NCBI GenBank assembly: GCA_034620365.1
Contig: JAQGEQ010000020.1
Coordinates: 558,001-622,000 of the forward strand
Origin: Pegea sp. RAD2-039
Taxonomy: Eukaryota > Chordata > Thaliacea > Salpida > Salpidae
DNA length: 64,000 nucleotides
Direction of reading: 5' to 3'
Positions within the stretch are counted from its first letter, which is position 1, and each line of letters starts with the position of its first letter. This document shows positions 6,391-61,915 of the stretch, piece by piece. The translations under genes and the position numbers were made by a program. The notes below the pieces were generated by a model. The model worked only from the letters and a program-made list of their open reading frames with translations. It did no database searches and was not told where the DNA came from.

Positions 6391-6394
6391 GAAC

Positions 6395-36528: not shown

Positions 36529-36825
36529 TTATGGACGTTCATCATCACATTTTTTTGATTGGCATCCACAATGAACAGCACTCTTATAAGTAACTTCTTT
36601 AATTGAGCGATCTGGACATAACAGATTGACCATTCGAGTTTCTGTGGTTGCCGCATTACAACAACTACAGATTCGTGTGAAATTTCCAGCTTCAAATGAA
36701 TAAGCTGATCGACTGACACAAGCTCCTTCACAGAAAGAGAGCTCAACTGGTCCATCACTTGTACATCCGTCAATTGTAAGACTTTGCTCGATTGTTTGTT
36801 TGATAGAACATTCTTTCATTGAGTC
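36529..36825 (-). other. C-terminal cystine-knot (CTCK) exon of the mucin-like gene
   Basis: The last exon follows the acceptor CTGTTTATAG. It has the CTCK spacing: CSIKQ at the start, FCEGAC in the middle, CSCC, then HCGC near the end. In VWF and gel-forming mucins this domain makes disulfide-linked tail-to-tail dimers. The protein ends KCDDERP. Confidence 0.9.
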
Positions 36826-39800
36826 TATAAACAGATATTGAAGCGATCATAAAAGAAAAAAAAGAAAGATAAAATATTTCCTTTTACCTGTTTCACAATA
36901 TTGACAACACCCATCAGCACTTGCTCTTATCTTATCGACAGGACAAGTAGGATCTAGTGGAATGCATGCAGCCTTTGAACATGTTGTAAATACTTCACCA
37001 GTTTCTGGGCACATCTCACAAGTACATGTTGTGCAACTATCATCCTTTGAAGCCCATGTTTGCCCGACCTTAAACAAGTATTCAATTAGATTTTAATCAA
37101 GTTTGAATAAAAATGAAATACTCACGGTGTGTTCATGCCCATCATAATGACAAGTAATTGGAACACAGTCACCGCAACATTCACCAGGTACTGGCACATA
37201 AGCGTATCCAGAACTGCATCGTCCGCATTGGATAGCTGTACATTCAGTTTCGTATTCTCCTAATGAGTTTGGTGCAGCGGAGCATGTGCATTCTGTACAA
37301 ATGTCTTCGAACCAAGTAGAAGCTGGTGCATGAGTTTCACTATTGTGTACACACATATTTGGTGGAGAACAAGTTCCTATAAAGCAATATCTTAAAAATC
37401 TATTTCTTCATCAAAAGAACGTAGAACTCACTGCTCTTGCATCCACAGCTATCAGTTTCATCTACTGTAATCCACCCATCTTTACAAACTGTTGTAACAA
37501 CTGGGCATTCATCACAAACACAAATTGCTTGTTTGCAACAACTATTTGCATTCACGTATTCAACATGTTGATTAACGTTACAATCAGCGTGTTCTACTGG
37601 ACATAGGCTTTGATCACATTCACATCGTATTGTGGTACAACAGGAAGATAAAGGTACTTCAACACTTCGCTCATATGAGGCACATCTTGTAGCAGTCATT
37701 GGACACAAAGAGCTGTTATAAAAGAGACATTTTAATCTTTCAGACACATTAAAATCTATTTAGTTTTTATGGTTAGATTATTTACCTATCACAAGTACAA
37801 ACTTCTTCATAAATCTTTGGGCAACAAGCCATTTGACGTGGATGTGTCCATCGGGTGCTTGTGGCAACTCGTTTCAAACCTCTTGAAGCATCACACTGTG
37901 GTGGGTAATAATGTGGACACATACTCACGTCACATTCACATTCCGCAATTATTGAACAGCATTTAGTTGCATCAATTATTTCCTATTTTTTAAAAAAGTA
38001 AAAGTTTTTCAACTAAAGACTCAAAGTAGTTCTAAAACCTTCACCTTAAGTCGATGACCATAAGAACATTGAGTTTGTCTTGCAGGGCAAGTAGCAACGT
38101 CACATACACATTGGTATTGTGAGCAGCAATCTCCTGGATTAATAACTTGGAGTTTTTCTCCAATATCACATTGAGGTTTTTCAACAGCTGGACATGAAGA
38201 ACGGTCGCAGCTGTATGGAGCCATTTCAGTTAAAAGGAAAATTTAAAAACAAATCAAAGTTAAGGAAACTTACATGCATTCGTATTCCTTGCAACATCTT
38301 CCTTCATTTACTACTTGAAGTTGGAAGCCATCTCCACTACATGATGGTTGTCTTGGACAAGTTTCTGGTCTACATTGGCAAGTCATTGACTTACAGCATT
38401 GACTAGATTCACTGGTTAAAGTTTCCCCGATCTAGTAATAATACAATCCTTTTAAACTTTGTTCTTGTTGCATATCTAGAAAATTAAAAAAACAACTAAC
38501 TTCACAAACTGGCTGTGGTACCATTGGACAGAGTGCTGGGTTGCAAACACAAACAAACTCGACACAGCATTGATCATGGATAATACTTTGGACATCTTCT
38601 CCAGGTTGACAAGATGGAGTTTGATATTTAGGACACGTCACTCCCTTAAAAAATATCTTGTTAAATCAGCTTTTATCAGTTGACTAGTTTAGATGAAATT
38701 ATATTTAATTTTGGTAATTACTTGACACGTTTCTCGTGATATGCATTCAGTGACTGGGCAGCATGTGTCTGCATCAACAGTTCGTTCAATTTCAGAAGAA
38801 GAACACACTTTTCTTGCTGGACAAGTTGCTGTCATTTGAAGCTGCAAAAATGTTTATGTTAAAAAATGTGGCTTTTTTAGAGAAAAAATAAAAACAAAAG
38901 GAAACTTTTGTCACAAGTTTCAATTTGTAACTTACAATTTGTCCATCGCATGAGCAAGTACTTGTTATGCAAGGATTATCTGTTCGGGTCCAAGATTCGC
39001 CGGCATATCTTCCAGCTCCTTGCTCATCATAGCAAACTGGGCACTCAGCTGAGTGTACACATGTTCCATTAGATAAGACCTTGAAAGAATTATTGCAAAG
39101 TTATTTTGGGCGATATTAAGTTAGTGATAATTGGAAATCTAGTAAATTACCATATCTCCATTACAGAAGCAGCCATCTGATAACGATTGTGATTCAGTAA
39201 GAATAAATTTGTAGTTGTCACATGTTCTTGGTGTTGATCGAGTGCAGCCTCTATATGATGCAGTTGCAGGACAGTCTACAGGACAGAGAGAATCGCTTCT
39301 CCATTCGATACAAAGATCATCACATAATCGACAAGTTGAAGCCAAAGCTGACAAGGCATAACAAGGTGTTCCTCCTGTGACCCAAAAAAGATTAATCAAA
39401 GAACAAGAAACAAAAAAAATAGATTTTCTGTTAATCAACTTACCGTTGCTTAGGTAAGATGCGCAAGCTCCAAGATACATCAGCTTATCTACTGAGCATG
39501 ATGAGAACTGATTTGCCATGAATTGACCACAAAGTCGAACATTGCCTAATGTTGCTTCTTGTAATGGTTTGTTGAAACGAGATTGAGACAAGCTAAATCC
39601 ATCTAGCACTTCATCAGTGATATCACCAATCTATAAATTAGAAGAATTGAAGTAGTAAACATATATTTAACTCTAAAAACACAAAGAATTAAATATTTTA
39701 CGAATCAGTAAATATTATGAAGTAAAAAAACAGATTTCCGTTTGAGGTTACCTTTACTTCATTTTGTACACAATTAGTTGAGCTGCAGGTTCCGCAGAGC

Positions 39801-42800
39801 CCATTGACGCGATTTTGGTATGAGTGTGGCAGTTTAACCGACCAAGTATGGCCTTCTTCTCCAAGTGTCACCACCAATCCGCATGTAGACAAAGTTGCAG
39901 TAATTTCTGAGTTCATTCTTATTACATAACTGAATTTTCTTAGAGTTTCCATTTGTTTAAGTGAGTATGTAGCACCATCAAGTTTAATCTAAAGTTTTGC
40001 GGAAAAAAACGAACCATTTTTATTTTCAATGAAATTATATCTATTGATTACTCACCTGGCCATTTGGATACAACACAAGTATGTGGTTTCCCACTCTATC
40101 TTCAATTGACAATGAGCCCAAACAGACAGATGAACTGCAATCTTTACGGTTTATCTTGATAGTGAAGTCATTTGTTTCCATGTCTTCAACAAGAACAAAG
40201 TCGCCAATTCGGCTTGAAGATACAAGATCCTCATTAAACATTGTCCAGTAGCTTGATAAACCATTACATACACCTATATAAAATCATAAGAAGCGAAAAT
40301 TACAAATATGGCAATGAAAGGTATTACTACGGAAAGAATAATAAGTTTATCTCGATCATCTACAGAATAGTAAATTAAAAACTCTCATAGGTGTTAACTT
40401 ACAATCACATGTGTAAACTTGGCAACATCCATCATTTGTTGTTATAAGTGTAGGTGTTGCTTTGTTTCTACATTTTGGTGCCGAAATAACTGGGCATATC
40501 TTTTTCTCGCAAATTGTGATACCATCTTCTGTACAGATACATTGCGAACAATGATCTAAGGGATCTAAGAAAGTGGATCCAAGCTCATGTGGTACTCCAG
40601 CAGCATCTGAGCAAACGATTGCTTCACACCTAAATATAATATAAGGTAAAAGTTAGGTAAGAAACTTGGAAGCATTTAAGGAATAACATTTATAAAATGT
40701 TTTCAGCACCTATAATGTGGACAGCAGTCGAAATCGCCGTCAACTTTCACTTTTCTTTCTCCTTCCTTGCAGTAGGTTTGTGGACATTTCTCAGAATTAC
40801 AAATACATCGATATTCGGGACAGCAAGCTCCATTGAAAGTAACAGCTACAAGCTCATAATACTCTCCGCAATCAGGCTGTGTTTCATTGCTACATGTTGT
40901 GTAGTCGCAAACACATTCGAAAACTGGGCAGCAACCAGATATCTTTTGTACCAGTTCGTATCCTTCTTCACATACAGGTCTAACAGTTGAACTACATTCG
41001 ACAGGCAAGCAAACAGTGCCACTTTCAAGGCAAGTACAGCTTTCACAATTTTCTTCCCAAACGTCTCCAATCTAAAAAAAAGTATTAATTTCACTTTTCC
41101 TTATACATTGTAACAACGTTGGAAGAAAATACTCACTGATTTCAAGCCTTCTTCGCAAGTCTTATCTGAAGGCAAGCATGAAGGACAACAATCACCAGGA
41201 AGCACAACAAGTGTATAACCAGGATTACAACTGTTTACTTCACAAAGTTCTTGAGTACATTTGGAAAGACCACCAATACAAATACAATTAGTACAGCCAT
41301 TATTTTCTTTCCAAATAGATCCACTCTACAATAAAAAATCAAACAAACAGCAACGCTAAATTAGTAAAAACATACCGTATAGAAATTATGCTCAGTAATA
41401 CATGGACAATCCTCAGGGGCAACACAACGTCTTCCATCCCATAATTCACTTGAGCTACAGCTAAATGAATCACCAGGAGTGATATCAACCCCATTACAAA
41501 CTTGTTTAGTTGTAAGTTCTACGGAAGTTACATTAGAATGTATATCTTGCAACTGAACTGGAAGTGCATCAATAAATTTGTAAGTTTGAGGTTTTACATC
41601 ATTAATAACATTGCTACGAATTGGACTGCTTGAATGAGGTGAGAAACTCATAGGCAAACCACGATCACCAGCAGATGGGGTGGGAGAAGTTACTAATAGC
41701 GAAGGCAAAACAGACACATCAAAGTCATCCGTATCTAATTCACTGTAGATAATTCCTGTATCATCTGCAACATATCCGGCGTGATCCTTGAATGGAACAT
41801 CGAATCGGTTGTCTTCAGTAATAACGTCATCTTCGTCGATGTATGTGTCATGTGGTATTGGTAGTCCACCATACATTACTGGTGCTTGTGGTCCGACAGG
41901 TTGTGGTCGCAATGGCTTGCCACTATCGCTGACAGTTGGTCCGAATGGACTTGGATATCCTGGTGCAAGTGGATGTCCTGGAGCAGTTGGTACTGGTCCG
42001 ACAGCTAATGTTGTTGGTCGATGATCTCCAAGATCCTTGTCATTGTCAGTGTAGACAACTCCTGTTTCTTGTGGAACATAACTTGGTCCTTCCAACATTG
42101 GAATATCGTACTTGTGACCGTCACTAAGAACATCTTCATCGTCATAATAACTGTCGTGTGGTGTTGGTACTCCACCATAGACCATTGGAGCTTGTGGGCC
42201 GACAGGTTGTGGTCTCATTGGCTTATCACTGTCTACAATGCTTGGGGCAAATGGAATTGGATAACCTGGTGCAAATGGATGTCCTGGAGCAGTTGGTACT
42301 GGTCCGACAGCTAATGTTGTTGGTCGATGATCTCCAAGATCCTTGTCATTGTCAGTGTAGACAACTCCTGTTTCTTGTGGAACATAACTTGGTCCTTCCA
42401 ACATTGGAATATCGTACTTGTGACCGTCACTAAGAACATCTTCATCGTCATAATAACTGTCTTGTGGTGTTGGTACTCCACCATAGACCATTGGAGCTTG
42501 TGGGCCGACAGGTTGTGGTCTCATTGGCTTATCACTGTCTACAATGCTTGGGGCAAATGGACTTGGATAACCTGGTGCAAGTGGATGTCCTGGTGCAGCA
42601 GCTGATGGAACATATGCTGGTCCTGATGGTGACAAGTCTCCGAGATCCTTGTCCATTCCACTGTAGATAATTCCTGTATCATCTGCAACATATCCGGCGT
42701 GATCCTTGAATGGAACATCGAATCGGTTGTCTTCAGTAATAACGTCATCTTCGTCGATGTATGTGTCATGTGGTGTTGGTAGTCCACCATACATTACTGG

Positions 42801-45800
42801 TGCTTGTGGTCCGACAGGTTGTGGTCGCAATGGCTTGCCACTATCGCTGACAGTTGGTCCGAATGGACTTGGATATCCTGGTGAAAGTGGATGTCCTGGA
42901 GCAGTTGGTACTGGTCCGACAGCTAATGTTGTTGGTCGATGATCTCCAAGATCCTTGTCATTGTCAGTGTAGACAACTCCTGTTTCTTGTGGAACATAAC
43001 TTGGTCCTCCCAACATTGGAATATCGTACTTGTGACCGTCACTAAGAACACCTTCATCGTCATAATAACTGTCGTGTGGTGTTGGTACTCCACCATAGAC
43101 CATTGGAGCTTGTGGGCCGACAGGTTGTGGTCTCATTGGCTTATCACTGTCTACAATGCTTGGGGCAAATGGGCTTGGATAACCTGGTGCAAGTGGATGT
43201 CCTGGTGCAGCAGCTGATGGAACATATGCTGGTCCTGATGGTGACAAGTCTCCGAGATCCTTGTCCATTCCACTGTAGATAATTCCTGTATCATCTGCAA
43301 CATATCCGGCGTGATCCTTGAATGGAACATCGAATCGGTTGTCTTCAGTAATAACGTCATCTTCGTCGATGTATGTGTCATGTGGTGTTGGTAGTCCACC
43401 ATACATTACTGGTGCTTGTGGTCCGACAGGTTGAGGTCGCAATGGCTTGCCACTATCGCTGACAGTTGGTCCGAATGGACTTGGATATCCTGGTGCAAGT
43501 GGATGTCCTGGAGCAGTTGGTACTGGCCCGACAGCTAATGTTGTTGGTCGATGATCTCCAAGATCCTTGTCATTGTCAGTGTAGACAACTCCTGTTTCTT
43601 GTGGAACATAACTTGGTCCTTCCAACATTGGAATATCGTACTTGTGACCGTCACTAAGAACATCTTCATCGTCATAATAACTGTCTTGTGGTGTTGGTAC
43701 TCCACCATAGACCATTGGAGCTTGTGGGCCGACAGGTTGTGGTCTCATTGGCTTATCACTGTCTACAATGCTTGGGGCAAATGGACTTGGATAACCTGGT
43801 GCAAGTGGATGTCCTGGTGCAGCAGCTGATGGAACATATGCTGGTCCTGATGGTGACAAGTCTCCGAGATCCTTGTCCATTCCACTGTAGATAATTCCTG
43901 TATCATCTGCAACATATCCGGCGTGATCCTTGAATGGAACATCGAATCGGTTGTCTTCAGTAATAACGTCATCTTCGTCGATGTATGTGTCATGTGGTGT
44001 TGGTAGTCCACCATACATTACTGGTGCTTGTGGTCCGACAGGTTGTGGTCGCAATGGCCTGCCACTATCGCTGACAGTTGGTCCGAATGGACTTGGATAT
44101 CCTGGTGCAAGTGGATGTCCTGGAGCAGTTGGTACTGGCCCGACAGCTAATGTTGTTGGTCGATGATCTCCAAGATCCTTGTCATTGTCAGTGTAGACAA
44201 CTCCTGTTTCTTGTGGAACATAACTTGGTCCTTCCAACATTGGAATATCGTACTTGTGACCGTCACTAAGAACATCTTCATCGTCATAATAACTGTCTTG
44301 TGGTGTTGGTACTCCACCATAGACCATTGGAGCTTGTGGGCCGACAGGTTGTGGTCTCATTGGCTTATCACTGTCTACAATGCTTGGGCCAAATGGACTT
44401 GGATAACCTGGTGCAAGTGGATGTCCTGGTGCAGCAGCTGATGGAACATATGCTGGTCCTGATGGTGACAAGTCTCCGAGATCCTTGTCCATTCCACTGT
44501 AGATAATTCCTGTATCATCTGCAACATATCCGGCGTGATCCTTGAATGGAACATCGAATCGGTTGTCTTCAGTAATAACGTCATCTTCGTCGATGTATGT
44601 GTCATGTGGTGTTGGTAGTCCACCATACATTACTGGTGCTTGTGGTCCGACAGGTTGTGGTCGCAATGGCCTGCCACTATCGCTGACAGTTGGTCCGAAT
44701 GGACTTGGATATCCTGGTGCAAGTGGATGTCCTGGAGCAGTTGGTACTGGCCCGACAGCTAATGTTGTTGGTCGATGATCTCCAAGATCCTTGTCATTGT
44801 CAGTGTAGACAACTCCTGTTTCTTGTGGAACATAACTTGGTCCTTCCAACATTGGAATATCGTACTTGTGACCGTCACTAAGAACATCTTCATCGTCATA
44901 ATAACTGTCTTGTGGTGTTGGTACTCCACCATAGACCATTGGAGCTTGTGGGCCGACAGGTTGTGGTCTCATTGGCTTATCACTGTCTACAATGCTTGGG
45001 GCAAATGGACTTGGATAACCTGGTGCAAGTGGATGTCCTGGTGCAGCAGCTGATGGAACATATGCTGGTCCTGATGGTGACAAGTCTCCGAGATCCTTGT
45101 CCATTCCACTGTAGATAATTCCTGTATCATCTGCAACATATCCGGCGTGATCCTTGAATGGAACATCGAATCGGTTGTCTTCAGTAATAACGTCATCTTC
45201 GTCGATGTATGTGTCATGAGGTGTTGGTAGTCCACCATACATTACTGGTGCTTGTGGTCCGATAGGTTGTGGTCGCAATGGTTTGCCACTATCGCTGACA
45301 GTTGGTCCGAATGGACTTGGATATCCTGGTGCAAGTGGATGTCCTGGAGCAGTTGGTACTGGCCCGACAGCTAATGTTGTTGGTCGATGATCTCCAAGAT
45401 CCTTGTCATTGTCAGTGTAGACAACTCCTGTTTCTTGTGGAACATAACTTGGTCCTTCCAACATTGGAATATCGTACTTGTGACCGTCACTAAGAACATT
45501 TTCATCGTCATAATAACTGTCTTGTGGTGTTGGTACTCCACCATAGACCATTGGAGCTTGTGGGCCGACAGGTTGTGGTCTCATTGGCTTATCACTGTCT
45601 ACAATGCTTGGGGCAAATGGACTTGGATAACCTGGTTCAAGTGGATATCCAGGAGCAGTTGGTACTGGTCCGATAGCTAATGTTGCCGGTAGTTCTTCTC
45701 CAAGATTTGTTTCATTCTCAGTGTAGACAACTCCTGTTTCTTGTGAAACATAAGTTGGTCCTTCCAAGCTTGGATTGTCGTTATTATGGATGTTTTCAAA

Positions 45801-48800
45801 GTTATATTCATTTTCATGCTCATTTATCATAGGAATTTCTTCAACTGTTTGAACTAACACTCCGATGTTTTCAGTAGGATTTCCCACATTTGGTAAGTTT
45901 TGATTGTTGTTTATAAATGGTGGTAATATTTTTGAATCTTTATTAAAGTTCGGTTGATCATTGTGGCCACTTGGTGTTATTATACTGTCTGTATACGATA
46001 GATCTGTTAAACTGTTCGGGATTTGTTCGTTTAGTGTTACTTGGTCTTCGTAAGGTATTGTTTCCTTTAGCAAATTGTCTAATGCATTGTAAATGTCATC
46101 TTGACTTTCTTCTTTATGAATCAACTCGTTTCTTTCCATTTGTTTGTTTTCTCTGCTAACGCGGACGCATTTTTTCACAGGACAACAAACTTCTGGATCT
46201 ACTTCCATTCTAATGGTACCCAGTGGGCAGTTTGCTTCTGCTAGTTTCATGCATTTTTCTTCTTCACATTGACACTGGTATTCTGCGCAGCAGCCATCGA
46301 ATGATGTACTTTGTAGTTTTTCGTAGTATTTGCACTTTGGTGTTGGCTTACATTGAAATTCATCGCAGTTTCCTATTAAAGATTAGATATTTGTTTTTAG
46401 TATTTTATTTTTGATATTGACACTTACTTTCAACACATCTGTAGGATTTACAGCATTCATCTAATTCTTCTGCTACTAATCTCTGACCAAAGGAACATAA
46501 TGGACGAGCTTGACATTCAACTGATTCACATCTGGTTTCGTCTTGATTATAACACGTACAAATTTGACAAGGATCATCTTGTTTCCTCCAACATTCTCCG
46601 TAAGATCTTTCTCTTCCTCGCTCATCCATACAAATAGTTAGGTCATCTACGATTTCGTATGCAAAATTTGGAACAGAAAGACCGTCAACAAGTCCTGCAG
46701 TTTGCGGTTGCACTATGTTGTCTAATTCCCCATATTTAGGTGATGATATTGCTGCATCAAAGATTGATAGCATTTGGTTAATTGATGGGGCTTGTTCTTT
46801 TGATGCTTCGCCAACAGCTGCGTCAACTTCTTCAACTATTTCTTCTTCAAGTGCCTAAACAAAAGGAAATCATCAATAAAATCTAGTTTTAAAAATCTAT
46901 TCATTTTAGTTTTATGTATTGTGTGATAAAGTAATTTTCACCGTAGTAGCATCAGTTGTTGGTTGTTCACCGGCAGTTTCTGGGTACTTCACTGCAAGAG
47001 CGGTGTAACTTGGATATTCAGAAGTAATATCTTCTGTAACTTCGATTGCTTTTTCTTCAGAGATGCAGTCCTTGATGACGCTTTCTTCAAGTTGATTATT
47101 CCAACAATAATACCTAGTACATGTGGCGCGACAGTCCCAATTGTCTCCGGGCTACAATATTCAATTATTTTTATAATACCAGCTAGCTTTTTAATTCAAA
47201 CAACTTAATCACTTACTGCTAAGATATTTCCATTCTGCAATATACATGGGCAATCTTTTGGATCAGTACATGTATTTTGATCACGTAGAACTTGGCCAGT
47301 TGGACATTTATTAATTGTTTGACCACAAGTAAAGCAACAAGTGGGATTTTGTCCGTGTATACATTCATAAGTTGCAGCTCTCCAAGCATGGCACAAATCT
47401 TGGCATTGATAACCGCACGGGTTCTGTCTACTTGGAGGGCAATTTTCTGCAAACGTAATGATTCAGTTTACAAGCAGAATGGTGACAAAAATAGATTTAA
47501 ATTTTTAAATTTAAAAACAATTTGTTTAAAATGATCTTTACTTACTGATTGCACGTCCCATTTCTGTATTACAAACATCTAATGTTGGTTTCAGCATAAA
47601 TGGGTCGTATCTTTCGGTTCCCACTCTTTCCCAATATTTTATTGTAGATGGTAAATCTGGTGGTTGATAACTATCTGGACATGATAAACCTAGACAATGT
47701 ATTCCGTGATCCATGCAGTAGCTATAAGAATATATTATAAATTATACTTTCATAAAGCTTGAAATATTTTGTTGCATCTAGATATTGTAAGGAAAACCTA
47801 AAAATAAACTTTTCACTTAAGGAGGTCTTACCAACTTTTACATTCATCTGACATGCTCCAAATTTTATCTCCTTCACCATATACTACGCCATCTATAGAT
47901 CTACATAAGCACTGTGATCGTTCTACACAGCAACCTTCATCAGTATCATAAATAAGTTTTCCTTTACATGAACAGCCTTCTACACAAGCATCTTTACACT
48001 CAGCTTCAATCTAAAAACAAGTAAGTTTGTAACAGACGCAAGAAACAATACGCTTTCTTATTTGGCTTGTCTTCAATTTCTAAATTATAAAAGGTTATTA
48101 AGTCTAGTCACCTGTGCACGCTTAGCATAATTATCGCATGTGACTGGACATGCTGAAACACATGGACTGTATACTCGATACCCATCACACTGTATTGGGC
48201 ACATCTCTTGAGTTCGCCAGTAAATATTGGCACCATGTCTATTACATTCTTGGGCATAAGCAGCAACTGCTGTACAGAAGCATTCGCATTCTCCACCACT
48301 GTTGCAAGCGCACGTGTCGAATATACAGCGCTCGTAGAAAGGTTCGTAATTAACGTATTTATGACACTCAGCAAATGTTGTTTTGATCACGCTACATCTT
48401 GCTTCAGCCCATGATCTTCGTCCAGGATTATTTGAACAACCATCAACTTCATCAACACTAGTTGGCGTTCGGCAGGTTCCTAGCTGCCAAGATTTTGCCA
48501 TATCTAGTTTGTCACTTGTTTCAAGTCCATCTAAGTACAATAAGGCTTTTATAGAACTGTGGTCTATTTATATAAATGTCTTAGATTATTTTACTTACCG
48601 CTGGTTCTGAAGTCATTTCTTGAATTCTGATCGTAGTTTCCACATAAACCTTCTACTTTACCTGCGTGCTCTTCAGACAACTTGACAACAATGTGAGTTG
48701 CTTTATCCCATTGAAGTGTTACGCCAATATCAGTATCGATGAACACTGATAATCCAACTTCTCTTAGCTCAAACCCAGATGCTCTTTCAATCTCAACATC

Positions 48801-51800
48801 CATACCACGAACTAATTGAACTGTGCTTTCTTCTGTTCCATTTATTATCGTCATTGTGACCTTTTTACTGAAAGTAACATCAGTTTTGATATAATAACTT
48901 GAAAAAGTTTAATTATTGATTAAAGATCTATTATCTACCTGCAAATTGTTCCATATGTCCCACAAGGTATGTTTGTTATAGCAATTTGGAAGTTGTAAGG
49001 ACTACCACTACTACTTCGTGCTAATACATACTCACAGCTCTAAAAAACAAATACCAACTTTTTTGCCCGACCATTGTAATAAATTAAGCTTAAATTCTTT
49101 AGGTAAATACTTTAACTTTATTTTCAATATGCAATTTTAGTTTTAGAGTCTCAATTATCTTACTTGTCCAAACTTATACGAATGATGATCAAATGTTGTA
49201 ATATGGTTAGCTCCATAAGCATGACAAGCACCACGACAGATTTTGTCGGTACAAGTCCATCGACCACCACTACATTGACAGTTATTGCAATCTTTTCTCA
49301 TAATTTCACCTTCTTGGTAGCTTCTTCCTCCATAAATACAAGGGCATTGATTCTTTGTAACACATTGACCGCATGTTTCATCCAAAACAAATCCTACGTA
49401 TATTATTACTTATTAAAACTCTGGTTAGAGTTTCGGGGTTTCAAATTTTGCTAAGTTGTAAGAACACTTTAGACAGCAGAGTTGAAATTCTCTGGAGTAT
49501 GTAAGAAATTGTAGTTTAAAACTTATGATTCAAGTTTAATGTTTCCAAACAGATTAAAGCAAAGTTTTAATATTTGTAATTACCTTCAAGACACTGGCAT
49601 CCAGATCTACATTGATCAGGTTTCTTGTGCTGTTCAATTGGCAAATGCATGCTGAAGCAAGTAGTTGGTCTCTCCCATTTGCATTTGACAAATTCCTAAT
49701 CAAGTTACGAACAAACAAAATAGTTATTTACAGATTTGAAGCCATTATAAAGAACTATACCTGGTTTGGTCCACATGATTCATTTGGTGGACAGACGTTA
49801 TCTGTACAATGCCACTTTCCAGTATTACATTCACAAACATTACAATCCTTTGAGTACAAATAATTTTCGGTTAAAAAAATAATGTTAATCAAATAGTCTC
49901 TTTTAGATAGTCGCTTCACCTGCATATGTGACTCTCCTGGCAAATATTTTTGATTCTCAAACCAACATGGACAGTCTCTTACATCAACACATATGCCAGA
50001 ATAATCAAAAACGAAACCCACTGGGCATGTACAACCAGGCACACATTGCTCAGTACAGGGAATTTCATCATGAATTGCTCCACAGGAAGCTTCACATGAA
50101 TTAGCGCATTCAGACCATTCACTTCCAGGTGAGCAGGTAACCTAGAAAAATAAACTCGAGTCATTTAAGCAACTGTTAAAAACTGTTAATAAAGAAAATA
50201 GTTTTATACCTCGCATTCTGAGTCATCTCTCCAATCAAACACAACTCCTTGTTTGTTACAAGCCATTGCATAAGTGGCAAAAATATCACAACCTGACTGG
50301 CTTCTGGGAAGAGTACAGAACTCGTACATACAAGCATCGTAGTAAGGCTGCACAAAAAGTCATGATAAAAATGAAATTCACAGCAAAAACTGATGTCAGT
50401 CAACTGAAACTTACTTGATATTCAACAATATCATGACATTGCAAAAATGGGGGATTTTTCAAGCGACCACAGAATTCTTTAGCACGAGGCTTGTTGATTG
50501 AATAAACCTTACAGGGATTTTCTTTCATTGGATCGTACCTTGGAGCTCCTTCACAAACTTCAGTCTATGCCAAATTTAAAGTAGTTTAACAACTGCATCA
50601 TTGACATATAAATATTCACCTGCCAAAGACTTGCAAATTCATAAACATCTTCGTGAGTAATGCCATCAGAAGCCCATTTGTCATCTTCTTGAATTGAGTT
50701 GAAGTTGCCGCACAATCCCATCATTCTTCCGCACATATTGTCTTTGGCTCGAATAAAGCAACGGGATTTGGTATCCCATAAAACAGTCATACCATTCCAG
50801 ATTGTAACCTGAACGAAAAATGTGTATTTTTAGAAACATTTTAGCAAAAAAACACAGTTTCAAAAGTTTGTATGAACCTTTTGAAACTCCGAAGTGACTT
50901 TTTCAACACTGAAGCTGTCTAAAACATGCGGCAGTCTCATTTCTTTGTCATTATGAATAACAAGGCCACCAGACATCAGTTGAACTGTTTGTCCATTTAC
51001 TGTAATAATTAGATTTCGTGTACATTGAGTTGCAGGTTGTCCAGTGGTTTGATCTGGTTCTCTGTTTCCATAACAAGAAAAGACATTAATATTTTGTTCA
51101 GATAAAGCTTTATTATTCACTTTGAAATTAAACAGCAACAACTTACAGGCATTTTTCACTTTGAATTACAATTTCAAAAGAAATTTCTTGATTTCCACTA
51201 GATCGTGCCAAAACGTAAGAACAATCTTGATCAACTTTCATATTGTAATCGGTTCCATCAAATGTCTGATAATGACTGCAAGGCAAAGACATTTGTTTCA
51301 ATGTTAAAGCTATCAGCATTATGATATAAGTTAATATCTCACCTGTCTCCAAATGTTCTACAGATTCCGTCACAAATGTTTTTAGTGCAAACCCATTTTC
51401 CTCGAGCACACACACATTGGTTACAATCACGACGAATCTTGCTTTTTGGTTGATATGACTGAAGTTTCATAATGATTATTAATAACAAATCAAATTCAAA
51501 AACTTGATATTCGGACACAAAAGTTTACCTTTTCTCCGAATTGACAAGGACAAGAGGTTTTTTCGACACATTGGCCATCGTACAAATACGTTCCTTGAGG
51601 ACAATGGCAGCCGTCAATACAATGTTTGTCTTCGCAATTGTATTCTCGGCCAGAACAAGTAAGTGGACAAGAGCTACCACATTGATCAAACACCATTCCT
51701 ACAGTAGTCAAAAATTTGAATGAGTTATTTCTATTTTCATGTACTTTATAAGGCTCACTGACCAACTGGGCATGAAGCGGGACATAAGTCCGGTCCTCTC

Positions 51801-54174
51801 CAATCTACATGAACACCACGTCTTGAGCATTCCCTGAAGTAAGCTGACATTGAGGCACAAACTGAACTTTCATCTCCTCCATAAAAGCAAACATCTTCTT
51901 TGCAAGCTTCAAAGAAGGGTACAGGATCAACAACATCTTGGCAAATAGAAGACATAATAGCTGAACACATAACAAGAGCGCGTCCTGTAAGAAATAAACG
52001 TTTGGTTAGATATTTGCTTAAAATTAAGTTAATTTTTTTAACAAACCAGTTAGAAGCCGACTTTGAATTGGTTCTCCTTCACCAAATTTGCAGTAAGGTT
52101 CGCTAGCTACGTTTCGACAGCTTAATGTAGATTTCCAGTTGTTTGCAAATATGTCAACATCATTGACAGTACGAGCTTGGCTTCCTTCATAGATTGTTAG
52201 ATCATCCAAGTTGTCCCTAAAATTATTTTTCGGTTTGTTTAACAAGCTTTGACATTGATATCTAAGGAAGTGACAATTTACCTGTTGAAAGTTCCACATA
52301 AACCAGAGGTCTTATATAACATTATTTCAGCTACATGAACCCAAATTTGTTCAGCGCCATCCCATTTGACACTCAACAAATTATCATCACTCTAAGGATT
52401 AAAATTTGGCATTTAAAAAACTTATTTTTAAACTTTTACTAGTTGTAACCAAACTTTATTCTCTAAAACAACCAATTTTACCTTGACAACAATATATGTA
52501 GCAATTTTCTCAACAGACAATCCATAGATATATTCAGGAAGGAAAAGCTTAGACATACCCTCGCCATAAGCAGTTGGTTCACCAGTCACTGGGTCATTCT
52601 TTAAGGTCAACTGATCGTCACCATAAGTAATAACTAAGCTTCTGGAAATAGGTATTTAAATGTTAAAAGATGATCATATGAAATATATGTAAACACATTT
52701 GTGTTGTGAAACAAACAAACCTTTTACAGGAAGCTTGAGAGCCATCACAGTTCTCATCGTTTTGAACATGAACTGTAAATCGTCCTCCAAACTGGTCCTT
52801 AGCCAAGATGTAGCTGCAAGCTCCATTGAATCTAAAGACTGTGCCATCAAAGGTTCGATAATGATGTTGACCCCAGGTGTAACAAGTTCCTGCTTGACTA
52901 GCTGGTGCTTTGATGTTAGTGTAAATACCGGTGTAATGCCCAGAACCAATCATATTGACCTATAAAACCAAAGGTTTAATTGAAATTGATTTTCAACAAT
53001 GATTTTCAATTTGTAGAAAAACCTACAGTGTTTTGATCTTCAATACACTGTGGAAGAATATTATCTGGCTTCCAGTATCCATTTACGTCACAGTAGTAAA
53101 AGCCACTTCGGGGAATATTTGCCGAGAACATGAAACCTTGAAGATATCAAACTTTGAAGACAGGTGTTTGTGGAAAAGAAGTTGACACATTACCTTGTGG
53201 ACAGGAAGGAAAGCATCGCTGCTCGTCATCTGTTACATTACATGCAACAAATCCGTTGACAGGTGGTGCTAGAGACCGACATCTTTGAAAGTAAAAGTAA
53301 TTAAGTTGTTTCAAAAAAGTCCAAAAAATTTACTTTTTATGTCCTTGAATACAAGAAGGGAATCGATTCTTTTCCGGTAGAGGAGGATTCCATTCACCAG
53401 TTGCCTTCGTACACACAAAGAGATTAGCGGAACTAGGGCGGTATCCATTGCGACAACGAATGTTGCAAAGGACCATTGACCCTACGTCCTGACAATCAAG
53501 ATCTTCGGCGTTTTCAGGCTCCATGGCTTCACATCTTGCCTCTGTTTACCATGTAACTCATTTTATTTATTTCTCATGAATCTCACAAAGTCCTCACACT
53601 TACCAATACATTGAGGGAAAACGCTTTGGCTCCACGTACCATCTTGCGGGCGGCATTTTGAAGTCAGTTCTTCACCGATCGTACATCCTTCAAACTTATA
53701 ACCAACATCACAAACTGCTGTGGCAATTCTAAAAAAAACAGTTTTCAAGATTTAGATTGTTGCTCATAAATTAAAAAAATTAAATCTTACATTTCATTGC
53801 CTTGTTGTTCATAAGTGATATCTCCATTTGAAAGCTGTGAAAAGTCAGCACAAAAGCCACGGTCGTCTAAATTACAAGATAATCATTTAAAAACACTTTA
53901 CAATACATTAATCAAGATTAAGAAAACGTTTTCTAACTTACCAACAGTTGCAACCACACTGTAAAAAGAATAAACACAATTTTTAAAATATTAATCATAC
54001 TTTAAGATCTACAATTGATATTACAACAAAATAGATTATCTTACAGTGTCACTAGTTCTAAGTTAAATGTCAAAATATTTTCTATAAAAAACTTTACAAA
54101 AAGATACAAGTTCAACAGTAAACTCACCATAATGGAAGCAAAAAAGCAGTTAAGAAAAGAAAGTTTGAAAACAT
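36529..54174 (-). CDS. Giant secreted gel-forming mucin / von Willebrand-like protein with an acidic tandem-repeat core
   Basis: An extracellular polymer-forming protein of roughly 4,500 residues in dozens of exons; only the first exons and the large central exon (41376-46372) were splice-resolved here. Order from the N-terminus: signal peptide (exon 1, 54128-54174, MFSNFLFLTAFLLPL; a 17-nt exon 2 at 53942-53958; exon 3 from 53866), sushi modules (53.1-53.8 kb), VWD1-C8-TIL (51.5-52.96 kb), VWD2-C8-TIL (49.6-51.35 kb), VWD3-C8-TIL (48.1-49.4 kb), more TIL/VWC-like modules and an acidic linker (46.4-48.0 kb), the tandem array (41.74-45.64 kb), VWC-like modules, VWD4-C8-TIL (39.1-40.3 kb), many short CC-containing cysteine modules (36.85-39.0 kb), and a CTCK cystine knot (36529-36825). 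This matches MUC2/MUC5/VWF/hemocytin layout plus sushi domains. GDPH and full CGLC motifs are absent. The family is sure; the orthologue is not. Confidence 0.92.
36850..39080 (-). other. Array of short VWC-like cysteine modules in the mucin-like gene
   Basis: Successive exons encode modules of about 45-65 residues with a repeated CxC-x3-CP ... CC ... CxC pattern (for example ICVCDECP, CVCDVATCP, CVCNPALCP). Similar modules link D4 to the cystine knot in gel-forming mucins and hemocytin. Several exons begin and end in the middle of a module, so exon and module borders do not coincide. Confidence 0.8.
39120..40290 (-). other. Fourth VWD with C8 and TIL (D4) of the mucin-like gene
   Basis: VWD4 starts near 40265 (CNGLSSYWTMFNED) and contains RVNGLCGTCSS near 39795. 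C8-type and TIL-type cysteine patterns follow at 39139-39609 (CDDLCIEWRS, LCPVDCP). In MUC2 and MUC5AC the start of D4 carries the self-cleaving GDPH sequence. Here that place reads NGLSS, so cleavage is not expected. Confidence 0.8.
41376..46372 (-). other. Single 5-kb exon holding the repeat core of the mucin-like gene
   Basis: Bounded by the acceptor CTTTAATAG (before GAAACTGCG) and the donor ACG|GTATG, this exon is open throughout. It begins with VWC-like cysteine sequence, passes through an Asn/Glu-rich linker, then the array of 102-residue modules, and ends in a Ser/Pro stretch and a cysteine cluster (VCNGVDITPG, ending ITEHNFYT). The opposite strand shows several repeated open frames, which are shadows of the array. 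Central exons of several kilobases are typical of gel-forming mucins. Confidence 0.9.
41740..45641 (-). repeat. Tandem array of 102-residue A and B modules (612-bp A+B period)
   Basis: Twelve complete modules plus a partial one, 306 bases each, run A-B five times, then A, A, B; the last B stops after about 76 residues. A modules contain DSYYDDEDVLSDGHKYDIP and VVYTDNDKDLGD. B modules contain DTYIDEDDVITEDNRFDVP and IIYSGMDKDLGD. Both begin with APGYPSPF and share RPQPVGPQAP and YGG.PTP, so A and B derive from one ancestor. A modules differ from each other at only a few residues, as do B modules. By count an A module has about 21 Pro, 15 Asp/Glu and only about 12 Ser/Thr. A degenerate partial A module precedes the array. 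Confidence 0.97.
46405..48010 (-). other. TIL/VWC-like modules and acidic linker between D3 and the repeat core
   Basis: Minus-strand exons encode cysteine-rich pieces (DACVEGCSCKGKL near 47.97 kb, QCQDLCHAWRAATYEC near 47.4 kb, DDPCQICTCYNQDETRC near 46.55 kb). Between them, near 46.8-47.0 kb, is an acidic low-cysteine linker (EEEIVEEVDAAVGEASKEQ). This corresponds to the D3-to-repeat junction of gel-forming mucins. Confidence 0.75.
48085..52970 (-). other. Three consecutive VWD-C8-TIL assemblies (D1, D2, D3) of the mucin-like gene
   Basis: VWD1 has HYRTFDGTVFRFNGACSYIL near 52.85 kb. VWD2 has HYQTFDG near 51.26 kb. VWD3 has THE equivalent HITTFDHHSYKFGQ near 49.18 kb. Each ends in a GLCG motif (SGLCGTF, MGLCGNF, EGLCGNY), with C8 and TIL modules following (for example DPVPFFEACKEDVCF and CIDGCHCPQGTYL). 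In VWF and mucins these units drive multimer assembly, through a CGLC motif. The first Cys of that motif is replaced in all three here. Confidence 0.88.
53100..53866 (-). other. N-terminal sushi (CCP) modules of the mucin-like gene
   Basis: Exons after the signal peptide encode modules with four cysteines and a late Trp, the sushi pattern: VCDVGYKFEGC ... GTWSQSVFPQC, then CNIRCRNGYRPSS ... GEWNPPLPE, then YCDVNGYWKPDNILPQC. Sushi domains ahead of VWD units are not part of the vertebrate gel-forming mucin or VWF layout, so this N-terminus is distinctive. Confidence 0.8.
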
Positions 54175-54330
54175 ACGAAATTTCGTAGAAAAAACGTTTT
54201 GAAGAAGTATGTTGGCTTGATTTTTGTTTCTCAAGCAAACAGATAAATATATTTCAATCAGAAGTAAACTGATAAGTAGAAGAGGCGAATACAAAGCGCC
54301 TTTGATAGTTTGATAGTCACCAGCATCTAC

Positions 54331-54338
54331 CTTATATA
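54331..54338 (-). promoter_or_regulatory. TATA box of the mucin-like gene
   Basis: TATATAAG on the minus strand lies about 157 bases upstream of the start codon at 54174. Transcription would begin near 54300-54308, giving a 5' leader of about 130 bases. It is the only strong TATA match close to the signal-peptide exon. Confidence 0.6.
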
Positions 54339-55295: not shown

Positions 55296-55299
55296 ACTT

Positions 55300-55330
<31 letters not shown>

Positions 55331-55333
55331 TTA
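55296..55333 (-). repeat. (TTTA)n microsatellite at a LINE 3' end
   Basis: About nine TTTA/ATTT units, joined directly to the conserved LINE 3' segment. On the element's own strand this is a (TAAA)n tail. The same junction, with a shorter tail, is seen at about 1655 and 61258. Confidence 0.9.
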
Positions 55334-56080
55334 CAATAAATGTGAAGGAGGGTGCCTAAAGAGAGCATCTCTCGCTAACACACATTCTCACAAATTAGAT
55401 CTATTTGACGTGTAAACGAAAAAGCATATGACAATGAAGAATTGCACAGAATCATAGTATTGTAAAAGAGAAAAATTCACAGTTTAGAAATGGCAATGTT
55501 GGCGATATTATAACAATTCAGCTTTTTCTTGAACAGCATAAGTGATTTTGACATGACAATCTCTGATGGCAGATTGTTCCCCATGTACTGATTGTGCGGT
55601 ATGAGAAAAAACTTAATCTGGTTAACGTAGCTGGTGGAGTGGGCTTATTAAGATGTAATTTATGTCTTCTAAGTTGATATAACTTGAGGGAGGGACTAAT
55701 GGAGAAAAAGTCATCAAACTGAAGATCAATTAGGTTGTGAATAATTTTAAAAATCAGAATAAGGTCGTATTTAATTCTTCGGGTTTCCAAAGTATCTAGA
55801 TTGAAGAAGCTGAGGCGATGCTTATAACTCTCGTATTTGATATTAAGTTTCCTGCAAACCAATCTCGTAAATGTTGCCTGAACAGATTCGATTTTTCTGA
55901 TATCACCAACTTGATATGGCATCCATGCACTGATATTGTATTCAAGAATAGGGCGTATGTACAGTTTGAAAAGGTTGACGAAAAACCATGGATCTTTAGA
56001 ATTAAAAGTCTTTATGATGAGGTGGACAAGCTTGATAGATTTTCCAAAGATTCTGGAAACTTTTACTTTGTATAACTTTG
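55334..56080 (-). mobile_element. LINE 3' piece: reverse transcriptase C-terminus plus 3' UTR
   Basis: Minus-strand frame 55518-55922, extended upstream to about 56075, reads FKLYIRPILEYNISAWMP then KIESVQATFTRLV and FFNLDTLETRRIKYDLILIF. This is the typical tail of a CR1/Jockey-like reverse transcriptase (LEY...W.P, then IE.VQ..FTR). The frame is intact over this stretch, so it is among the younger pieces. It lacks the endonuclease and catalytic RT core. It could be the 3' half of the element whose 5' half lies at 59.2-60.7 kb, split by other insertions, or a separate 5'-truncated copy. Confidence 0.85.
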
Positions 56081-57540
56081 TGGTCGCTTATAAATGTGTA
56101 TAATTGTTTAAATGCTTGATTAGATTTTATTAAATAAGACGTAGAGCAGTATTTTCTCAAATGTTTTCATTTAAAAGAGGCCATATGAGATTTCCAGGAT
56201 CGCTTAAAGTTGCAATTTAACAACTTACACGAATCGATTGCATATTTGTTTTATAGTTTATGTTTAGTGTTTGAACTCTGCTACTCGAAATTACTTGTAT
56301 ACTTTTGTGATCGTTCTAGTTATTATTTTCTGTTTTGTTAAGGGTTTTACAAATTTATGTAACCAAATACATTTTTATTCACTTTAGCCGATCAAGGAAC
56401 AGCAAGTCTTCATACTTTTTCAGACGTATAATTTTTTGATCCAGCAGGTCTAGTGCTGAGCTTCATAAACTTAACTGTGTTCTACTAAATACATTAAACT
56501 TGATTTACTTGTAATGATTTCAACTAATTCTTATTTGGAAGATGGATAAGTCAGTATCCAATTTGAACTCCTTTTGTTTTTACATATGCTTCAAAAATAA
56601 TCTGATATTTTATTAACTAATAATGAAATCTTTAATAAACTGAAATAAAAATCTTTGAGATACAGTAATGAAACCTTTAATCTCTTAAATAAGTTTTTTT
56701 TATGGACTATGTAGTAGTTTGAGCCACTAGTAAGTGTTGATGAAAAGTTTTGATTCAAAATATCAAAAGTATTTCAAACCTTTATACATTTTGAGCTTTC
56801 TGAAGATTTGACTTTGTTAACACAAGGAAAATTATGAAAATTATCATACAAGCTAGTTGGATATAATGGTTTTAGTCAATTTTAGCTAAGGTATTAAATC
56901 GATCTGACATCTTGAATTTAGTATAAAGGCATGGAAAAAGTTTGTAAAAGCAGTCTGTAAAATAATTAAATGATTAAAACTTATTTAAAGATTATTTGCA
57001 AGAAGCAATTAAAACTAAAGTTGCTGAGTCGGTTATAAAAGCAAAAATGTGTTGCATTAACACATTTAAAACTATTTCTATCAATTAATCAATTTGGTTT
57101 TTATATCAAAACATAAATTAAAATAATTTAAAATCCGTACGATGAATAAAGTATTTAGAAAATAAGATTTCCGGTCATCATGGCAACGAAAAATGTAATA
57201 TTTGACCCATTCACACTAATCCAAATAAAATTAGATTGCAGGTCTTATGTTAAGTCACTTTTGAATTACAAAAATAATGAAAGTTTCCCTAAATAGGGGC
57301 CTGCTTCGTCTGAAAATGGCCATACTGGATATACTTTGACGATATTAAAAATAAGGCAAAACACATAAAGTTGCAAAGGAGATAATGCAGCAAGATACAA
57401 TGAAATGAAAATGGAACGTCTTTAGAGTCTCTTTCTTTTCTTTGAAGCTGGTTTTTCATTCTTCAGTTATATACTATTCTTTAGTTGATTTCGGAGTAGA
57501 GAGCGCAATTTGTTGCAATCTGATACCATATTCTATTAAA
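56081..57540. other. AT-rich DNA without a recognisable gene
   Basis: No exon or recognisable repeat on either strand. A slightly GC-richer part near 57170-57440 precedes the LINE fragment and may belong to the same decayed element. Confidence 0.4.
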
Positions 57541-59200: not shown

Positions 59201-60660
59201 TTAACTATCAAGACTAATATTCAACATGGTCGAAGCAAAAGGAAGTAAGAAAAAGAGTAGTGACAAGGAGGAATTAGTTTTTCTTAAAAACAAATCAGGC
59301 ATCTGATCTGGGGTATTAGAAACTGATGATTTTAAATAAGAAATAGCCTTAGCTACCATATTGACCTTTATGTCAAGATATATCATTTCAGAGGCATTTG
59401 TAAGAATGTCAGAGTAGGAAAGAGAAGAAGTATTGCGATCATCGGTTATAAAAACGCTATTATAAACGATTGTTTAGCAACTCAGCTTTATTCTCTGGTT
59501 CCATCACAAACTGGTTTCTGTTATCAAGCAAGGGAGATATTTGAGATTTCACCTTAAGCTTGTGATTTATGAAAACGAAAAACGTTTTCTTGCTAGGTGA
59601 AGATAAGACTGCACTTTCTTTTCCTAAGTAGAAATTAGAGATAGATTTCTTGTAAACTATATAAAGATCTTTGTGCAGAGATTTGATGGAATAGTCTGCT
59701 TTAGTTTGTTTGTAGAGGAGGTTTTGTATATGTTGTAAGTTCCTTAAGTATTTGGAAAAATGTGGCTTTTTGTTGGCTCTATAAAAAGGTATGAATTTTT
59801 CAATTGACTCTTTAACGATGTTCGTAAACCTTGAGTAAATAGTGTTGATGTCTTTGGTAGAGTTGAAGACAGAAATCCAGTCAACATCTGATAGAAACTT
59901 TTTGATACCATCATAATTTCCACAATAAAAATTCCTTTTGCTTGGAGTTTCAACGTTCATGGAAAAAGTTTGATGAAGCTTGAATTCAATCATGTTGTGA
60001 TCGAATATTAGAGTAAAAGAATCTTTTTGATCAACGTAGATAATGTTCTGAGAGTTTGATGTGGTAAGAAGATTCAAAATATTACCATTAACTTGGATTG
60101 GAAATGTAACCATCTGAGATAGGTTATTGGCATCTAGGAAGCTCAAAAAGGCATAACTTAAAATGAATGAATTAGGATTGTCGCTATCCGAGTTGTACGA
60201 TTTTCCCATAAATGCTGAATTCGGATTATTCCAATCAATTTTACTAAAATTAAAATCCCCCAAAATATATAACTTAGGACACAAAATACTCTTCAAAACC
60301 TACAATAAGGCCTTAACAGTAACCTCATTATTAGTTTTAGAAGGTGGTAGATAGGTACATATAAAACGAGAAAATTTGTACTTCGAGTAATGAAAATCTA
60401 AAGCGATAATCTCAAATACTGGAGAATTAACGCTATATATCTGAATTTTGGAGATCTTGGAAGGATGGTGTTCACAATTGTCTGCGGAGAGCATGTGAAA
60501 AAAGAAGATGTGGGACCAGTGGTTATTTGCTACTTCCGTTTTATGAAAAAACCTTGACAATTGTCAAGGCCCATGGTGGACCTCAAACTTTTTATTTGAA
60601 ATCAGTTGGTTGTTTCTTCTGATTTCGGTTGTATGCCTTTTTTTAAAAGACGCTTGTTTT
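59201..60660 (-). mobile_element. Decayed LINE, endonuclease to start of reverse transcriptase (best 5' copy)
   Basis: Minus-strand frames 60300-60560 and 59460-60296 are the two parts of one endonuclease-containing frame broken near 60298. The second contains YILGDFNFSKIDWN (the catalytic GDFN block of AP-like endonucleases) and, later, FDHNMIEF, then the linker with EPENKAELLNN. A third frame at 59201-59386 has LKSSVSNTPDQMPDLFLRK, the first RT block. Frameshifts separate the parts, and homology ends before the catalytic RT motifs. The family is CR1/Jockey-like by motif order. The copy at 1.04-2.74 kb is its closest relative here. Confidence 0.88.
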
Positions 60661-61249: not shown

Positions 61250-61915
61250 CTTAAAAAATATTTATTTATTACAATAAACTTGACTAAGGACCTGAAAATA
61301 GCACCTCTCGCTAACACACATTCTCACAAGTAGTAACTATTATGTATAATTAGGGTACAAATATAAAAATAAAAAGATGAAACCCTTAGCATTTCAGTAG
61401 TTACCCCCAGACAATATAACCGTGAATATTTACACAGAATATTAAATATATAAAAGAAAAACAAATCACAGTTTCAAAATGACAATGTTGGCAATATTAT
61501 AACGTTTTAAATTCTGCTGGAACAACGCGAGTGATTCTGACATGACAATGTCTGGTGGCAGCTGGTTCCATGTACTAATTGTGTAGTATGAGAAAAAAAA
61601 TCTGATTAACGCACCAGTTGAATGCGCTTATTAAGGTTTATTGTGTGTCGTCTGAGTTTATATAACTTGAGGGAAGGACTAATTGAAACGAAAACATCAA
61701 ATTTAAGGTCAACTGTATTATGGATAATTTTTAGAATAAGAATTAAGTCGTATTTAATCCGCCGAATTTCCAAAGTATCTAAATTAAAAAAGATGTGACG
61801 ATGTTCATAATGGGCTGTAAGCTCTTTAAGAAAGATGAGATGTTCAGTCAGGGAAGATCTTCATTTCACAAGGCCATGCTGGACATCAGATATTATATAG
61901 TGCTATATCAAATGA
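61250..61915 (-). mobile_element. Internally deleted LINE copy
   Basis: It starts (on its own 3' side) with the shared tail and GCTAACACACATTCTCAC segment at 61308-61325. The minus strand then encodes FFNLDTLEIRRIKYDLILIL and LKLYKLRRHT, as in the 55.5-kb copy. Just upstream, at about 61820-61900, it reads SDVQHGLVK, stop, RSSLTEHLIFLKEL, an earlier RT motif (QHGF.KGRS). The several hundred residues that separate these two blocks in an intact element are missing, so an internal deletion has joined them. Confidence 0.75.

Follow-up and report, generated by a model that had tools for sequence, protein, structure and literature searches.

What fills the centre of a mucin-like protein that lacks the usual core rich in proline, threonine and serine (PTS)? 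The question is raised by a 64,000-nt stretch of DNA from the salp Pegea sp. RAD2-039 (GenBank assembly GCA_034620365.1, contig JAQGEQ010000020.1, positions 558,001 to 622,000), called the window below. Its minus strand, on which the gene features located below lie, carries a predicted gene with a long array of tandem 102-residue units. The initial annotation had described here a mucin-type protein with an acidic Pro/Tyr array in place of a Ser/Thr-rich region, and had proposed that Asp/Glu clusters, perhaps with sulfated tyrosines, do the work of O-glycans. We read the product as a secreted protein with a mucin/VWF frame whose usual PTS core gives way to an expanded, Cys-free, Pro/Gly/Tyr-rich and mildly acidic array; it would form a polymer in which the array is a flexible spacer, giving a protein gel or glue. 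To this reading as a whole we assign an even chance. Shown below are the frame, as given by a predicted gene model, the array with its conservation in two copies of the gene, and a paralogue whose core differs.

Domain frame of the predicted gene

The gene model (36529..54174) comes from dynamic-programming splice prediction, with the first exon corrected afterwards. It has 49 exons coding for about 4629 amino acids, and 42 exons besides the first are intact in a near-identical second copy, split between contigs C40 and C80. Human MUC2 is described as also having 49 exons with a large central one (PMC6269512). The predicted protein runs from a signal peptide through sushi-like domains, the D1, D2 and D3 assemblies, a linker with a Cys cassette, the array, VWC-like modules, a divergent D4 and VWC-type modules to a CTCK cystine knot.

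The signal-peptide exon (MFSNFLFLTAFLLPLC..., 54128..54174), whose signal peptide was recognised by eye, continues in phase into exon 2, has the donor GTGAG and is conserved in C40; the ATG first chosen as start by the splice model was rejected, being GTG in the C40 copy. Three sushi-like domains by eye (53027..53866; two Pfam stretches, PF00084, E = 5.7e-07) precede the D1, D2 and D3 assemblies of VWD-C8-TIL type (47691..52906), in which Pfam finds three VWD stretches (E = 1.4e-84), three of C8 and four of TIL. Just before the array, an exon of the splice model (46428..46854) holds an acidic linker and the first part of a Cys cassette that is 33–39% identical to the cassettes of a paralogue on contig C3. 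After the array come VWC-like modules (40403..41325; Pfam VWC, three stretches in the C-terminal part), the first of them 42% identical to its C3 counterpart, and then the divergent D4 (38936..40273), with VWD at E = 2.2e-08, TIL at E = 2e-06 and C8 below the Pfam cut-off. A run of VWC-type Cys modules follows (36888..38841); the best Pfam VWC stretch (E = 1e-11) is near the C-terminus, and the others were assigned by eye from Cys spacing. The CTCK with the stop codon (36529..36824; Pfam Cys_knot, E = 5.3e-08) closes the gene, the stop being common to C80.

Both the N-terminal D1-D2-D3 assemblies of gel-forming mucins (by Pfam and alignment) and their D4 and C-terminal CTCK are present. Residues 241–1432 of the first model align to human MUC5AC (9gvj) in one stretch (E = 1.5e-172). 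The D1-D2-D3 region matches MUC2 with E = 8.8e-168 and VWF with E = 8.6e-163, the latter in three stretches; the C8-3 part of D3 scores higher with MUC2 D3 (145.8 bits) than with VWF D3 (93.2), and the CTCK matches VWF (9qrv, E = 1e-10; 4nt5, E = 1.6e-10). Ranked by E-value, FCGBP comes first (7.3e-190), with six stretches added together. The families FA58C and VWA are absent among the Pfam matches of the predicted gene. The MUC2/MUC5-type setting that had been proposed is borne out by the Pfam domains, the MUC5AC/MUC2 alignment and the CTCK match, and in the predicted gene the array does lie where such proteins have their PTS region.

Upstream of the gene, a TATATAAGG box at 54330–54338 on the minus strand, 164 bp ahead of the signal-peptide ATG and conserved in the C40 copy, is a likely promoter element.

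A repeat array within one exon

The array is carried by an open reading frame of 1673 codons (46382..41364) and sits inside one 5-kb exon of the predicted gene. By open frame and splice model this large central exon (41376..46372) comprises the end of the Cys cassette, the array and the start of the next Cys module. Thirteen anchors of the form GPxAPx[VM]YGG occur at a spacing of always exactly 102 amino acids, and Tandem Repeats Finder (score threshold 50) reports a period of 306 with 12.9 copies at 41846–45781 (score 4412). The units fall into two types in the order ABABABABABAA followed by a partial B.

Anchor spacing and Tandem Repeats Finder place the 12 full units (seven A and five B) at 41895..45566. 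They are flanked at the N-terminal edge by a decayed partial unit (45567..45779; frame reading and anchor scan) and at the C-terminal edge by the partial B unit (41742..41894; anchor scan). With these partial units the array extends over about 41742–45779, residues 1970–3314 of the protein, which agrees within about 140 bases with the limits 41740..45641 given in the initial annotation. Its count of 12 full and one partial 102-residue modules is likewise confirmed; the alternation of A and B that it reported holds along most of the array and breaks once, units 11 and 12 both being A. The composition of an A unit had been given as 21 Pro, 15 Asp/Glu and 12 Ser/Thr, close to the 19, 14 and 13 that we count; a B unit has 17, 16 and 11.

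A Pfam scan of the units gave no credible family (SAMP2 and two others, all below the cut-offs), and a second scan gave zero families for the array and one, below the cut-off, for the core unit of the C3 paralogue. The possibility of an assembly artefact or a non-coding repeat was ruled out by the open frame, the GT-AG exons and the low ratio of nonsynonymous to synonymous substitution (dN/dS) in the second copy. The array is a real, coding and conserved feature.

A second copy of the gene

Contig C40 carries the 5′ part of the second copy and ends inside the gene; C80 carries the 3′ part and ends inside the array. Of the first model's exons, 26 were compared with C40 (the rejected first one among them) and 17 with C80, 43 in all, to which the signal-peptide exon was added; five exons (46428–48010) and the parts of the array exon on either side of the array lie outside the comparison. 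Over the 43 exons the second copy has zero indels, keeps GT/AG at the internal borders and has the terminal stop only. Outside the array, dN/dS is 0.027 over 1346 codons (C40) and 0.089 over 1186 codons (C80).

The units of the two arrays were compared without the partial last B, and C80 A units with Leu were counted as A. All 13 units of the window and 16 of C80 are exactly 306 bp long, and 16 is a lower bound for C80, as the contig ends in the array. The consensus A units differ between the copies in two residues, both Met/Leu exchanges, and the consensus B units are identical. Divergence of A units is 2.83% and 0.99% within the arrays and 3.52% between them; for B units the values are 0.39%, 0.28% and 1.32%. 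Units closer within than between arrays are a pattern as in concerted evolution, which can also lower dN between copies, so that the between-array dN/dS of 0.30 for A units and 0.04 for B units is indicative only.

The likeness of the window copy (C57) to C40/C80 ends at about 35549 and 55309, and the flank at 20000–35600 matches elsewhere over 52 and 42 bases only. These two facts disfavour C40/C80 as simply the other haplotype of C57 and make a duplicated segment likelier. Next to the 5′ border of this segment there are fragments that resemble non-LTR retrotransposons by eye (55300–56087, 59460–60299 and 61609–61860), with a TTTA tract at 55299–55332 nearby; Pfam on two frames from these fragments returned zero matches. 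Contig breaks fall in or near the arrays of second copies, at the end of C40 (416315), the end of C80 (741901), the end of C5 (395614) and the start of C42, the last two belonging to the paralogue described next.

A paralogue with an unrelated core

A diverged paralogue on contig C3 keeps the frame and has an unrelated core in the same region. The C3 stretch compared lay short of its CTCK; within it, many D1–D3 segments are 36–60% identical to the window gene and some less, and the D4 part is 22% identical (E = 4.5e-12), beside the cassette and module identities given above. There is a second C3-type copy as well, on C5, which ends before any array is reached, and on C42, which begins inside an array.

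The C3 core consists of a 333-bp unit in 12.5 copies with 99% matches, coding for 111 residues rich in Gly, Ala, Asp and Tyr. The search for homology between it and the A/B core gave a best E of 13 with the low-complexity filter off, and a common origin of the two cores was rejected on this ground. In make-up they are alike: Pro plus Gly is 27.9% in the C3 unit and 28.5% in the window array, Ser plus Thr 9.9% and 11.9%, aromatic residues 9.0% and 8.4%, net charge per residue −0.081 and −0.098, and Cys is absent from both. We read both as flexible spacers in what would be a disulfide polymer.

In the parts read of further VWD loci (C113, C18, C21, C262 and C8) no long Ser/Thr-poor array was seen; C84, C88, C25, C30 and C192 are among the VWD loci outside this survey of cores. 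At C262:1503000–1510999 (4623–7016) another gene with D domains has, by eye, VWA-like domains after its Ser/Thr-rich linker, a VWF-like layout. By eye, C18 and C113 carry haemolectin-like genes whose D3 is of the GGDCECYC type and whose linkers are Thr-rich; the C18 gene seems to have LDLa/FA58C-like parts as well.

Charge, and possible sulfation and glycosylation, of the core

The array contains 17.6% Pro, 10.9% Gly and 6.5% Tyr, and its isoelectric point is 4.18. That the core is poor in Ser/Thr, as first described, stands: 100-residue windows hold 9–14 Ser plus Thr in the array and at most 26 anywhere in the protein, and the Thr-rich repeat of the VWD gene on C113 reaches 42. Neither the array nor any other window of the protein qualifies as a PTS domain, and the array as a PTS variant is ruled out by its composition.

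The initial annotation proposed that the core may be a polyanion of Asp/Glu clusters, perhaps with sulfated tyrosines, that replaces the O-glycans of mucins and makes a calcium-responsive gel or adhesive. The low isoelectric point fits this, as does a net charge of −132 over 1345 residues, and 13 of 14 acidic positions are kept between A and B. Spread over the array, however, this is a net charge per residue of only −0.098 (fraction of charged residues 0.19), below the −0.135 of the 104-residue linker ahead of it, so the array is not unusually acidic among the linkers of this protein. Sites of the YYDDED/YIDEDD kind do recur along the array, and by a motif rule for tyrosine sulfation 28 of its 87 tyrosines are candidates; but when the A and B sequences were shuffled at constant composition, the observed count of Tyr-acid motifs was reached in 7.4% of 2000 trials (P = 0.074), and in three concatenated C3 units none of 18 tyrosines fits the rule. 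Charge and sulfotyrosine are weak as the principle of this core, and we consider such a polyanion improbable. Mainly because the C3 core is alike in make-up and has no sulfation candidates, we prefer a flexible sticker-and-spacer.

A low-sugar mucin, with the array O-glycosylated at about seven Pro-flanked Ser/Thr per unit, would be another way to read the same residues. Pro stands at −1, +1 or +3 of 7 of 13 Ser/Thr in A and 7 of 11 in B; among adhesives, the flatworm protein Mlig-ap2 is described with Gal-GalNAc (PMC6410801) and the frog PRIT repeats with GalNAc sites predicted at as many as three places in 18 amino acids (PMC11237159). Against it, the array has 9–14 Ser plus Thr per 100 residues where the C113 repeat has 42, and other classes of position are better kept between A and B than Ser/Thr (9 of 13): 13 of 14 for acidic residues, 16 of 19 for Pro and 7 of 8 for aromatics, the difference between Ser/Thr and acidic positions not being significant (Fisher P = 0.16). 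Some O-glycosylation of the array is possible from these sites; a sparse mucin domain as its principle we hold to be unlikely.

A probable disulfide polymer with a protein core

In the sticker-and-spacer reading, the CTCK would dimerise the C-termini and the D1-D2-D3 head would join the N-termini, giving disulfide chains; judged from the domains present, the predicted protein quite probably forms such a polymer. Each chain would contain, as its array, some 1350 residues of flexible and probably disordered spacer, in which the Pro/Gly backbone and the regularly placed tyrosines could provide stretch and self-contact, and the DDED/DEDD clusters may give some calcium or pH response in packing and release. 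A role of the array as spacer and sticker appears rather likely. The product would then be a protein-based gel, glue or matrix rather than a sugar-based lubricating mucus; a glue or structural gel is a possibility that we place a little below an even chance.

Particular cysteines join the VWF dimer, and the CGLC motif is important in D domains. In MUC2 the D3 dimer is described as closed by C1088 and C1130, the latter corresponding to VWF C1142 (PMC6739602). With C1088 located from the distances to C1082 and C1090 reported there, its counterpart is kept in the predicted protein, GGECECFC aligning to GGDCECFC of MUC2.

Several observations weigh against the reading just set out, beside the caution attached to the array dN/dS. 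The counterpart of MUC2 C1130 is missing, with a gap opposite VWF C1142 in the alignment, and none of the four D domains has the first Cys of CGLC (they read SGLC, MGLC, EGLC and NGLC); human MUC2 D2 likewise lacks it. Because of these two absences assembly may differ in detail, although polymerisation by the mucin route is still likely. Disorder of the array is probable as judged by composition alone: the charge–hydropathy line used for disorder puts the whole array and the A unit among disordered sequences, leaves B marginal and places the C3 unit just on the folded side. Constraint between A and B is mild (mean dS 0.55, dN 0.33), and their acidic positions are not significantly better kept than Ser/Thr, as noted. 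Finally, although the C3 core, too, comes after a Cys cassette, several such cassettes precede it and a further one lies behind it, so that the two cores share a region of the protein and not an exact site.

Some of these points would suit a clotting or immune protein of the haemolectin/VWF-like kind that gained its long linker by repeat expansion, the array being a mere spacer of irrelevant sequence. The VWF-like layout with N-terminal sushi domains is in keeping with this, as are the difference in array length between the copies (13 against at least 16 units), the wholly different core of the paralogue and the mild constraint between A and B. Haemolectin/VWF-like proteins also share D assemblies and VWC modules with the window protein, and C113 and C18 look like this group by eye. 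These two differ in their Thr-rich linkers, in the FA58C/LDLa-like parts of C18 and in having no long Ser/Thr-poor array in the stretches read. The low dN/dS of the units between copies speaks against an irrelevant sequence, and FA58C and VWA, which the VWD genes on C18 and C262 seem by eye to have, are missing from the gene's Pfam matches. A clotting or immune protein of this kind we regard as improbable.

Array fragments elsewhere in the genome

A stretch of 336 bp from the array, made up of one A unit and some 30 bp more, occurs at C159:70000–79999 (4669–5004; locus L012) and likewise at loci L013–L017. The host repeat of these loci is several kb to about 10 kb long, its pieces are about 88–99% identical, and it is found at six places (C159, C86, C165, two on C272, and C359); at L012 it also holds a PROPPIN/WIPI-like frame. 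This looks like an amplified segment that has taken up gene fragments; that the segment is of B-chromosome or similar kind is a guess. Isolated fragments with stops lie on C46:124000–133999 (4792–5312, L011; 521 bp, about 92% identical), with a cyclophilin frame about 2.6 kb away, and on C265 (4662–4761, L018; 100 bp, 87%); these are scattered pseudogene pieces of the array. Telomere repeats were sought as well: TTAGGC gave 0 hits and TTAGGG 81 forward and 5 reverse, some of the TTAGGG hits lying right at the start of C108 and C125. There was no match to COX1, and no hit to the nematode SL1 in a search in which no control responded.

Relation to known proteins

With the gel-forming mucins MUC2, MUC5AC and MUC5B the window protein shares D1-D2-D3 in one stretch, D4, CTCK and one huge repetitive central exon. 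It differs in lacking a PTS region and one of the two D3 inter-chain cysteines, in having N-terminal sushi domains and in its GLC motifs without the first Cys. All mucins are stated to have at least one PTS domain (PMC1552070), and by that definition the window protein falls outside the mucins; its probable mode of action is that of a polymer with a mucin frame and a protein core. A gel-forming mucin with PTS is described from a placozoan (PMC12013895), and VWD proteins are reported from limpet pedal mucus (PMC7333891).

Adhesives of the VWD family offer parallels to the core. Mlig-ap2 of Macrostomum is described with VWD/TIL at its N-terminal end and TIL also near the C-terminal end (PMC8621496), and with a centre of long tandem units, 21 of 255 and 25 of 221 amino acids, 46 repeats in all (PMC6410801). 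The likeness drawn here is one of layout. Mlig-ap2 differs in having two VWD domains and in ending in thrombospondin-1 repeats, with no CTCK mentioned in the parts of these sources used here. The thrombospondin-1 family is absent among the Pfam matches of the window gene, which has the first two parts of that layout (VWD/TIL at the N-terminal end, a core of long units) and not the third. The frog PRIT glue belongs to an IgGFc-binding/VWD gene cluster, in which disordered Gly/Pro-rich repeats are described as having arisen in parallel between conserved domains (PMC11237159); in PRIT itself, unlike the window protein, the VWD domains are lost and the units are of 18 or 8 residues and Lys-rich, again with no CTCK mentioned in the portion of the source available. 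Spiggin, the stickleback nest glue derived from MUC19, is likewise secreted, and a multimerisation motif is predicted in its VWD domain, but the part of the paper available describes no long repeat array (PMC4989455).

The statement in the initial annotation that no gel-forming mucin with such a core had been described is not contradicted by the topical literature, but it needs narrowing, as VWD-family adhesives with non-PTS repeat cores are published (PMC6410801, PMC11237159). Topical literature searches, which covered titles and the starts of abstracts, with subscription papers mostly outside, listed no protein that joins the complete mucin frame to an acidic Pro/Tyr core; they do not prove absence. 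What is new here is the C3 paralogue, which has kept the frame and carries an unrelated core.

Tentatively, the polymerising frame of mucins may be seen as a chassis with exchangeable protein cores, in which mucus-like properties would come from protein repeats and not from glycans. It has been suggested that the exact core sequence of gel-forming mucins matters little given enough sites for O-glycans (PMC6269512). Here the same frame holds a core that is poor in glycan sites and low in dN/dS, and a paralogue holds an unrelated core of similar make-up; this amounts to a natural experiment, open to test, on how a mucin frame behaves when dense sugars are missing, and may guide work on gels and glues built from protein.

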